A stretch of DNA of 28,970 bases from a virus: positions 1 through 28,970 of IMG/VR virus record IMGVR_UViG_3300006919_010533; one strand, written 5' to 3'. This document shows positions 26,219 through 28,970 of the stretch, one piece after another. Every line of letters begins with the position of its first letter. The stretch's first letter is position 1. Below the pieces are notes generated by a model. The model had not been told where the DNA came from. It saw nothing but the letters and a program-made list of their open reading frames with translations, and ran no database searches. The translations under genes were made by a program, and so were the position numbers.

Positions 26219-26389
26219 TTATTTTGATTTAATAATGTATTCAACAGTATTAGCAACATCATCCATCGCATCTCTTAAAAGTGGTTGTTGGCCAGAATGA
26301 CACTCTGATACCGCACCTTTTTTAGTTTCTTCGCAGAGAGTCCATCTCCACTGCTTCATACTTTTAGAGTACCACAAATTAATTTTCAT
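26219..26389 (-). CDS. small phage protein, 56 aa
   Basis: 56 aa from ATG 26389; a longer frame up to 26434 is unlikely because this ATG overlaps the end of the 65-codon upstream gene by 11 nt. The N-terminus MKINLWYSKSMKQWRWTL is aromatic and basic, and the rest (LLRDAMDDVANTVEYIIKSK) is helical. Two Cys. It looks like a small beta-hairpin-plus-helix domain. Function unknown. Part of a four-gene overlapping string from 26973 to 26219. Confidence 0.7.
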   Translation of the reverse strand: MKINLWYSKSMKQWRWTLCEETKKGAVSECHSGQQPLLRDAMDDVANTVEYIIKSK

Positions 26390-26573
26390 TTGTGTGCTCC
26401 TTGCCGACCAAAGTATATAATTTTCGAAGTTCACACATCATAATCATGTGTTCACTTTCCATATCACTAATCCTATATTGAAGATTTTCAATCATTTCAT
26501 ATAGACTTTCATGATTTAGTTTTTCAGATGGTTTGAAAAATTCTTTGATTGTCCTTTTAAGTTTCTTTTTCAT
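26379..26573 (-). CDS. small coiled-coil phage protein, 64 aa
   Basis: 64 aa from ATG 26573, overlapping the upstream TGA by one base (TGATG). The N-terminus KKKLKRTIKEFFKPSEKL is strongly basic. The centre ESLYEMIENLQYRISDMESEHMIMM fits a coiled coil, which suggests a dimer. The basic end could contact nucleic acid. No family recognised. Translationally coupled to both neighbours. Confidence 0.7.
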   Translation of the reverse strand: MKKKLKRTIKEFFKPSEKLNHESLYEMIENLQYRISDMESEHMIMMCELRKLYTLVGKEHTNEN

Positions 26574-27605: not shown

Positions 27606-27678
27606 AGCGGGATATCGGATTCGAACCGACGACATTCAGCTTGGAAGGCTGACGTTCTACCAACTGAACTAATCCCGC
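27606..27678 (-). tRNA. tRNA-Gly (anticodon TCC)
   Basis: Acceptor GCGGGAT/ATCCCGC, D arm TAGTTCAGTTGGTAGAAC, anticodon arm TCAGC-CTTCCAA-GCTGA giving TCC, and T arm GGTTCGAATCC. No CCA encoded. Its 5' end overlaps the 3' end of the HNH gene, whose TAG stop is tRNA bases 8-10. Confidence 0.95.
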
Positions 27679-28022
27679 AGTTGTAGAGTTCCGGCATGGA
27701 CTCTACGATGACAATTAGAACACAGACAAACACATTTGTCAATCTCTGTTTTAATCTTTTCTAAAGAAGAGTTATTATGTATTAGTTTACTAATACCATG
27801 CTCTTTCTCTGTATGATCCAAATGATGAAAATCTATCACCACAGGATCATTTTCACCACAAACAATACAAGGTGTCATTTGTTCTAAAACAAACTCTTTG
27901 TTTCGTTTAGAACGTGCTTCACGTAATTCTTTACGTTTTTGCTTGACATCTGACCGTTTATCATACTCCTTTTTATAAGCAGTTTGATAACGTTGTCGGT
28001 CTTCTTTGTTTGCGTATGGCAT
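27669..28022 (-). CDS. HNH endonuclease overlapping tRNA-Gly
   Basis: 117 aa. Zinc pair C52-x2-C55 (CIVCG), core IDFHHLDH (64-70), and second pair C101-x2-C104 followed by HRRVH (CSNCHRRVH). The first 45 residues are highly basic, a likely DNA-binding arm. The opening MPYANKED is shared with the HNH gene at 22667-23119. The C-terminal residues LRD and the TAG stop are coded by the first ten bases of tRNA-Gly. This suggests the nuclease gene inserted beside the tRNA and uses it as its end. Early promoter and late-like box lie upstream. A homing role is plausible, not shown. Confidence 0.88.
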   Translation of the reverse strand: MPYANKEDRQRYQTAYKKEYDKRSDVKQKRKELREARSKRNKEFVLEQMTPCIVCGENDPVVIDFHHLDHTEKEHGISKLIHNNSSLEKIKTEIDKCVCLCSNCHRRVHAGTLQLRD

Positions 28023-28043
28023 GTATCACGGGGTGTAGTAACA

Positions 28044-28060
28044 TTATTTAGTTAACTAAA
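28044..28060 (-). promoter_or_regulatory. late-like box in a 14-bp palindrome
   Basis: The palindrome TTTAGTTAACTAAA (28047-28060) overlaps a late-like CTAAATAA (28044-28051, minus strand), 22 nt before the HNH start. It lies between the sigma70 promoter at 28079-28107 and that gene. It may be an operator or a late promoter. Confidence 0.5.
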
Positions 28061-28078
28061 CCCTTTAACCATGAGACA

Positions 28079-28111: not shown

Positions 28112-28582
28112 TTATTCAAAGATAAACTCTTGCCATTCTGGAACTTTTGAATCAGTCAAATCTATAAGGACTTTACTAATCGGTGCTTTTGGAGTTGAAG
28201 ATAACTTCATTCCAGTGTGTTCCAGCATCTTATCACCCTTTTTAATATTACAAGGTGAACATGCAACCACTAAATTTTCCCAGGTATCTTTACCACCACG
28301 GCTACGCGGAATAACATGATCAATGGTTAAACTTTTTGTCGATCCACAATACTGACATTTATTTTTATCTCTCTTGTAAATCAAGTTTTTAGTTGGATAC
28401 ATATTGTTCATTCTACTAAATGGAATAATAACATAGTTTACCAATCGAATCACTCGTTTTGATATTAACTTTGCTTTTTCTTTGAACAATAGTATAATTG
28501 CTCTTTTCCAATTTGTAAAGTGAAGAGGTTCATAAGAACTATTAAGAACTAAAATTGTCGAATGAGGTTCTACAATTTCCAT
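28112..28582 (-). CDS. HNH endonuclease, cyanobacterial VLNxxYxPL type
   Basis: 156 aa. Unlike the other two, it begins with ILVLNSSYEPLHFTNWKRAI, the N-terminal domain of an HNH family very common in cyanobacteria and their phages. The nuclease core is C76-x2-C79 (CQYCG), TIDHVIPRSRGG (His89), WENLVVACSPCN and KK (Asn103, Cys108, Cys111, Asn112). All catalytic residues are intact. It may nick host or phage DNA or act in recombination. It follows tRNA-Thr and is driven by its own sigma70 promoter and a late-like box. Confidence 0.92.
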   Translation of the reverse strand: MEIVEPHSTILVLNSSYEPLHFTNWKRAIILLFKEKAKLISKRVIRLVNYVIIPFSRMNNMYPTKNLIYKRDKNKCQYCGSTKSLTIDHVIPRSRGGKDTWENLVVACSPCNIKKGDKMLEHTGMKLSSTPKAPISKVLIDLTDSKVPEWQEFIFE

Positions 28583-28730: not shown

Positions 28731-28802
28731 CTCCCCCGGCAGGATTCGAACCTGCGACCAATCGATTAACAGTCGATGGCTCTACCGCTGAGCTACAGAG
28801 GA
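28731..28802 (-). tRNA. tRNA-Asn (anticodon GTT)
   Basis: Acceptor TCCTCTG/CGGGGGA with two G-T pairs, D arm AGCTCAGCGGTAGAGC, anticodon arm ATCGA-CTGTTAA-TCGAT giving GTT, and T arm GGTTCGAATCC. No CCA encoded. Its bases 8-10 supply the TAG stop of the upstream coding frame. Confidence 0.95.
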
Positions 28803-28970
28803 TTGTTTTCTCCTTTCTTTGTTTTGAAGTAGAGTTTATAATACCTCTTCTTCATCTCATCAATGAACTTCATGTCCTCTTCAAATCCCATATACTTGAG
28901 ATGTTGATAAGTACCTTCCATCTCACTTATGAGTAAAAGAAGATTGATTCCCGTTACGGGTCTTCCACCA
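28793..28970 (-). CDS. C-terminal end of an unknown phage gene (runs off window)
   Basis: An open frame of 58 codons enters from the right edge and stops at TAG 28793-28795, inside tRNA-Asn. The visible part has ITGINLLLLISEME-like hydrophobic helix character, then EDMKFIDEMKKRYYKLYF, a charged aromatic helix, and a basic tail KTKKGENNPL. The last residues NPL and the stop are coded by the tRNA's 5' end. No internal stop and good codon bias support a real gene. The family cannot be named from this part. Confidence 0.65.
   Translation of the reverse strand, partial: GGRPVTGINLLLLISEMEGTYQHLKYMGFEEDMKFIDEMKKRYYKLYFKTKKGENNPL

Follow-up and report, generated by a model that had tools for sequence, protein, structure and literature searches.

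Can a tRNA gene end the protein gene that lies in front of it, and if so, how does a gene come to be placed in this way? The question is raised by IMG/VR record IMGVR_UViG_3300006919_010533, which was analyzed over its full length of 28,970 nt (the window), and for which an earlier note had claimed that an HNH gene and a partial gene both stop at a TAG formed by bases U8-A9-G10 of the following tRNA. Judging from a PhotoRC-II RNA and from the Kyanoviridae relatives, the source of the window is a T4-like cyanophage, a virus of marine cyanobacteria. The PhotoRC-II cis-regulatory RNA is located at positions 377-474 on the minus strand (Rfam RF01717, 73.7 bits). The minus-strand order at the locus is DUF7212 (partial), tRNA-Asn, tRNA-Thr, HNH no. 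2, HNH no. 1, tRNA-Gly and an OMP-like gene (Table 1).

Table 1. Coordinates of the features at the locus, and public records with lost annotations.
Feature	Coordinates	Strand	Evidence or remark
HNH gene no. 1 (117 aa), free-standing homing-endonuclease type	27669..28022	-	phrog_3106, E 4.9e-29
TAG, stop of HNH no. 1 = U8-A9-G10 of tRNA-Gly	27669..27671	-	read from sequence
tRNA-Gly(tcc)	27606..27678	-	ARAGORN; Rfam RF00005, 74.2 bits
HNH no. 1 leader	28023..28066	-	CTAAATA in modest hairpin
DUF7212 / phrog_741 gene, truncated by window end	28793..28969	-	PF23848, E 7.4e-29; phrog_741
TAG, stop of DUF7212 = U8-A9-G10 of tRNA-Asn	28793..28795	-	same in homologs
tRNA-Asn(gtt)	28731..28802	-	ARAGORN; Rfam, 68.4 bits
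HNH gene no. 2 (phrog_16726), own stop; control	28112..28582	-	0/53 unique homologs stop in tRNA
Loci with lost annotations	L406 MT162468.2 13234-16098; L407 OP917831.1 142909-145434; L408 KJ019040.1 12223-14185; L001 HQ634189.1		

The tRNAs called by ARAGORN and Rfam, taken together with the ORF ends, confirmed this claim. tRNA-Gly starts with GCGGGAT-TAG and tRNA-Asn with TCCTCTG-TAG; the HNH no. 1 ORF ends in ..CTG CGG GAT TAG (L-R-D) and the DUF7212 ORF in ..AAC AAT CCT CTG TAG (tail N-N-P-L), so both TAGs are tRNA bases 8-10. Nucleotides 1-10 of tRNA-Gly (27678-27669) are shared with the HNH no. 1 ORF, and those of tRNA-Asn with the DUF7212 ORF. As had also been proposed, the acceptor stem encodes the C-termini, in that the last two to three residues of both proteins are acceptor-stem code. 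Only the frame of HNH no. 1 stops within tRNA-Gly, the other two running to positions 78 and 85. As for the other tRNAs of the window, tRNA-Thr carries a TAG at 8-10 but has another tRNA immediately in front of it; tRNA-Ser has no TAG at these positions. An end of the proteins before the tRNA, which would speak against the overlap, is unlikely: an earlier in-frame stop is absent, and in some HNHs (L099) the codon of the last conserved His, probably the catalytic one, lies 2 nt upstream of the tRNA.

On the evidence of conserved protein families, both ORFs are real genes. HNH no. 1 is 79% identical to its S-RIM50 homolog, and a dN/dS of about 0.15-0.2 relative to its relatives indicates purifying selection. 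It matches the phrog_3106 HNH endonuclease family (E 4.9e-29), and its Pfam HNH score lies below the cut-off (18.3 vs 21.4 bits). The gene is intergenic, located between HNH no. 2 and an intact tRNA-Gly, with no intron or intein host. Here, domain and family searches gave HNH-type families only, plus a weak ParBc_2 match, and no GIY-YIG domain.

U8 is nearly universal in tRNAs and A9-G10 is common, and UAR at positions 8-10 is thus frequent. It follows from this consensus that about one in three ORFs entering such a tRNA must stop there; the two U8-A9-G10 stops of a single window are, taken alone, weak evidence. Positions 8-10 were the commonest stop position within tRNAs in a random sample of tRNA-bearing viral contigs, which had been retrieved with TAG-containing tRNA patterns and is biased towards such tRNAs. 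On the TAG-bearing tRNAs of this sample, genes of 50 aa or longer were distributed 30/14/13 over the three frames and those of 110 aa or longer 8/7/5, which makes for a modest effect overall. That such a frame rule holds universally in phages was rejected, as the excess in the sample fades in long genes.

The families to which the two window genes belong depart strongly from this picture. Members of the HNH no. 1 family stop within a tRNA in 56 of 98 unique genes (57%; 11 tRNA identities), a number that includes apparently spurious ARAGORN tRNA-Phe calls in L134, L140, L144 and L154, which were excluded from the isotype and frame counts. The stop is at positions 8-10 in 36 of the 98; a second pass yielded 54 and 34, respectively. 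DUF7212 genes stop within a tRNA in 45 of 74 unique cases, 38 of them at 8-10 (Asn, Arg, Thr, Gly, Ala and Val). The ending noted in the window thus recurs in other phage genes, a check that the earlier note had called for. Among the other genes on the HNH no. 1-family contigs, only 31 of 1,110 stop in a tRNA, 13 of these at 8-10. No such stop was found in the 53 unique homologs of HNH no. 2, although 38 of them have a tRNA at most 300 nt downstream, nor in 30 members of the OMP family. The family-wide counts are far above background and the window pair is not due to chance; the Fisher values for these counts overstate independence, as the rows are related.

The anatomy of the HNH genes points to the source of these stops. 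In one subfamily, near-identical genes share a conserved ..RKRL end that is followed, after 1-14 nt, by tRNA-Thr, -Lys, -Val or -Asp, and the stop is the in-frame one that the tRNA happens to offer, at position 6, 7, 8, 19 or 21. In other HNHs the ORF closes three residues past the last conserved His (..LCSNCHRILH-SGD* in L099; ..LCANCHQIEH-YGT* in L010). Variable in-frame tRNA stops and ORFs that end just after the last His indicate that these genes are mostly without a stop of their own, which the tRNA supplies. On the family tree the tRNA identity must have changed no fewer than 17 times, a number based on few columns and a topology with many unresolved forks.

Genes unrelated to endonucleases borrow stops as well. 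DUF7212 genes that are not followed by a tRNA end at ordinary stops; cpeT stops within a tRNA in 6 of 18 cases (Gly, Val, Thr and Asp), and the small gene like that at 26219-26434 of the window in 7 of 44. C-terminal tails vary with the tRNA that is present, and the identity of the tRNA varies even at the single cpeT junction. Changing tails, ordinary stops where no tRNA follows and varied tRNAs at one junction are as compatible with passive borrowing as with regulation. For these three genes, which merely adjoin tRNAs, passive borrowing of the stop is the reading that we prefer. By eye, stops at tRNA positions 8-10 were also seen in a GIY-YIG-like protein gene (L279, tRNA-Leu) and in several 2OG-Fe(II) oxygenase-like genes (among L001, L232, L317 and L388).

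The overlap of HNH no. 1 with its tRNA appears to stem from a site at which a mobile-type gene sits or inserts, an aspect that the earlier note had missed. In S-RIM8 and S-H25, cpeT enters tRNA-Gly and stops at U8-A9-R10 with no HNH gene in between; it stops likewise in tRNA-Val of S-M1 and in tRNA-Thr of ACG-2014b. In S-RIM50, a phage of the same genus as S-RIM8, an HNH gene is located exactly at the cpeT/tRNA-Gly junction, with the layout cpeT..GTGCGGATGTAGTT-ttataaatagaattactacatcctcagaaac-ATG-HNH..ttGCGGATGTAGTT-rest of tRNA-Gly. GCGGATGTAGTT flanks the HNH gene on both sides, i.e. nucleotides 1-12 of tRNA-Gly occur in two copies, of which the left one provides the stop for cpeT and the right one that for the HNH gene. 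The presence of the HNH gene at this one site is hence sporadic, S-RIM8 and S-H25 carrying the HNH-less allele; an HNH-less close relative of the window itself was not found. Further differences between S-RIM8 and S-RIM50 within tRNA-Gly indicate that the insertion event was not perfectly clean.

Remnants of tRNA 5′ ends are seen at other loci. The left remnant in L104 consists of nucleotides 1-10 of a tRNA-Val (HNH-less relative L029), the upstream gene having its own TGA just before it; that in L073 consists of nucleotides 1-10 of a tRNA-Asn (relative L083), and L089/L090 contain a longer, orphan tRNA-Gly-like 5′ piece. A left copy in every HNH leader was considered and rejected: it is exact in S-RIM50 only, partial in L089/L090, L104 and L073, and absent from most leaders, and the leader matches of L026 and L099 are to other upstream tRNA sequence. 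From these few cases we infer that HNH elements, mostly stop-less, may settle at the borders between genes and tRNAs by insertion or recombination. The first ~10 nt of the former tRNA could then persist and terminate the gene upstream, and the start of the functional tRNA would come with the right end of the element.

A conserved RNA of ~73 nt was observed upstream of HNH genes in L073 (313-385) and at the same place in L114, L128, L129, L138, L145, L150 and L156. It is cloverleaf-like with a GTT anticodon loop and lacks U8-A9 and the usual T-loop; it was not called a tRNA by ARAGORN, gave nothing above threshold in Rfam and folded no better than shuffled sequences.

The HNH leaders share features with those of known phage endonucleases. 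A late promoter within a hairpin controls several T4 homing endonucleases, including segB (PMC2988022), and NATAAATA is a reported cyanophage late promoter (PMC2984593). TAAATA was found 20-36 nt upstream of the ATG in 53 of 84 HNH genes vs 99 of 646 other genes; in 39 of these 53, vs 35 of 88 late-promoter controls, it lies within a stem with no fewer than 7 bp. HNH leaders are also more stably folded than those of other genes. Late expression of the HNH genes from the TAAATA promoter would be consistent with these counts. In the window, TAAATA is located at 28050-28045 (-28 from the ATG of HNH no. 1) in a modest hairpin (-10.7 kcal/mol, z -2.1); the late-promoter hairpin is weak here, the motif being clear in most relatives. 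AGGGTTTAGTT in the same leader may be a decayed copy of the tRNA-Gly 5′ end, an uncertain resemblance (p about 0.07). S-RIM50 has a hairpin of nine perfect base pairs at L160:3961-3993 (GGATGTAGT..ACTACATCC; -19 kcal/mol, z -5.5): its 5′ arm is the left tRNA-Gly 5′ copy, and its loop contains TTATAAATA. The complementarity between leader and tRNA (GGATGTAGT..ACTACATCC) is striking in this phage, with no enrichment across the family; as a general property of the HNH leaders, complementarity to the own tRNA 5′ end was accordingly rejected (own 4.87 vs 4.68 for all pairs; permutation p 0.12).

We consider it likely that, taken as a whole, tRNAs provide abutting genes with stops and that the HNH no. 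1 family settles at tRNA 5′ ends by insertion or recombination. The near-invariant U8-A9-R10 allows tRNA genes to stop adjoining protein genes, and the 3′ border of these small free-standing homing-endonuclease-type genes would be the tRNA 5′ end, so that the tRNA would supply their stop. Passive compaction alone, in which tRNA-adjacent genes mutate their own stop away and run to the next one, the UAR at 8-10, with neither insertion preference nor regulation, draws on the fact that U8-A9-R10 is a built-in stop that entails minimal overlap, and on DUF7212, cpeT and the 26434-type gene, which use it with varying tails and have ordinary stops where a tRNA is missing. It leaves unexplained why 57% of the HNH no. 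1 family lies at tRNA 5′ ends compared with 0/53 for HNH no. 2, as well as the duplicated 12 nt of tRNA that flank the HNH gene of S-RIM50, and as the sole explanation we regard it as unlikely. A somewhat better, though still doubtful, case can be made for a cassette in which HNH gene and tRNA move together by recombination between conserved tRNA sequences, with no endonuclease targeting of the tRNA end: the HNH genes of the tRNA-Gly subfamily are always on tRNA-Gly (12/12, one clade), the tRNA body differs between S-RIM50 and S-RIM8, and microhomology between the 5′ end of tRNA-Tyr and the 3′ end of segB is implicated in the amplification of a T6 segment (PMC13096335). Near-identical HNHs on different tRNA identities argue against it, the tRNA being no fixed passenger.

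The earlier note had linked tRNA maturation to expression. In such a regulatory coupling, 5′ processing of the tRNA would strip the stop and so limit the output of the protein encoded in front of it, by way of a non-stop mRNA and a predicted tmRNA rescue. This would follow logically from a cut by RNase P in front of base 1. The same model has been proposed, as a hypothesis, for selB/selC (PMC8124441), and RNA processing has been suggested to limit endonuclease output for T4 segB and segG and Aeh1 mobE (PMC2988022). However, the place of the stop, the tail and the kind of tRNA all change freely, and DUF7212 and cpeT, which are no kin of endonucleases, end likewise; a regulatory role of this kind appears improbable to us.

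Free-standing homing endonucleases are defined by cleavage of the allele that lacks them and by biased inheritance. HNH no. 1 probably works like and belongs among those of phages, with mobility by homing. In mitochondrial tRNA punctuation, tRNA processing likewise sets the mRNA end and some protein genes overlap a tRNA, of which PMC8124441 cites an example; that system differs in concerning organelle genomes, in stops often completed by polyadenylation and in having no mobile element. Closest in habit is SegB of T4/T6, a free-standing phage homing endonuclease associated with tRNA clusters (PMC13096335, PMC2988022) that resembles the HNH no. 1 family in the microhomology between the segB 3′ end and the tRNA-Tyr 5′ end (PMC13096335) and in its hairpin/late-promoter leader (PMC2988022). 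SegB is, however, a GIY-YIG enzyme, whereas HNH no. 1 is of the HNH type, and the literature searched contained no report of a segB stop codon within a tRNA. T4 MobA-E are small, intergenic, free-standing HNH endonuclease genes of T4-like phages, as HNH no. 1 is, but in the T4 table they lie between protein genes and not at tRNA 5′ ends (PMC2988022). Closest in the non-stop idea is selB-selC (Mukai 2021, PMC8124441), in which an ORF enters a tRNA gene, processing would give a non-stop mRNA and remnant tRNA pieces persist in ORFs. It differs in being cellular and not mobile, and in that the ORF contains the whole tRNA-Sec or stops at nucleotides 46-48 rather than at U8-A9-G10 (PMC8124441); just nucleotides 1-10 of the tRNA lie within either window ORF. 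The open-access literature searched did not yield a previous description of phage genes that stop at U8-A9-G10, and one may exist elsewhere.

RNase P cleaves before tRNA base 1, and a transcript processed in this way has lost its stop. A read-through transcript could thus serve either as mRNA or as tRNA precursor: a ribosome terminating at 8-10 would keep the 5′ side of the acceptor stem unpaired, and the RNase P cut of the precursor route would leave a non-stop mRNA, so that one RNA molecule would serve one purpose at a time. In its most elaborate form, which we think improbable, the tRNA would be both landing site and terminator of a stop-less mobile HNH family, and a predicted hairpin/RNase P switch would cap the endonuclease dose. 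On early read-through transcripts the leader hairpin would shut off HNH translation while the tRNA folds and is processed; late transcripts starting within the hairpin would allow the HNH gene to be translated, each RNase P cut removing its stop and the dose hence being capped by tRNA maturation. Quite apart from this form, the arrangement would give a concrete rule for some phage homing endonucleases that sit against tRNA genes with both genes usable, and a natural set of RNAs whose ten shared bases are contested between tRNA maturation and translation.

Overlaps of this kind also affect public records. The cpeT CDS is missing in S-H25 and S-M1, where cpeT runs into a tRNA, and the DUF7212 CDS in Syn30, which the gene/tRNA overlap explains. 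The tRNAs after cpeT are missing in ACG-2014b, and the S-H25 tRNA annotated as Pro-TGG is Gly-TCC according to ARAGORN. In Streptomyces phage Paradiddles (MF347637.1, L403:3581-3847), an HNH homolog is located among tRNAs with an annotated tmRNA ~1.2 kb downstream, which would be of interest if non-stop mRNAs arise there.
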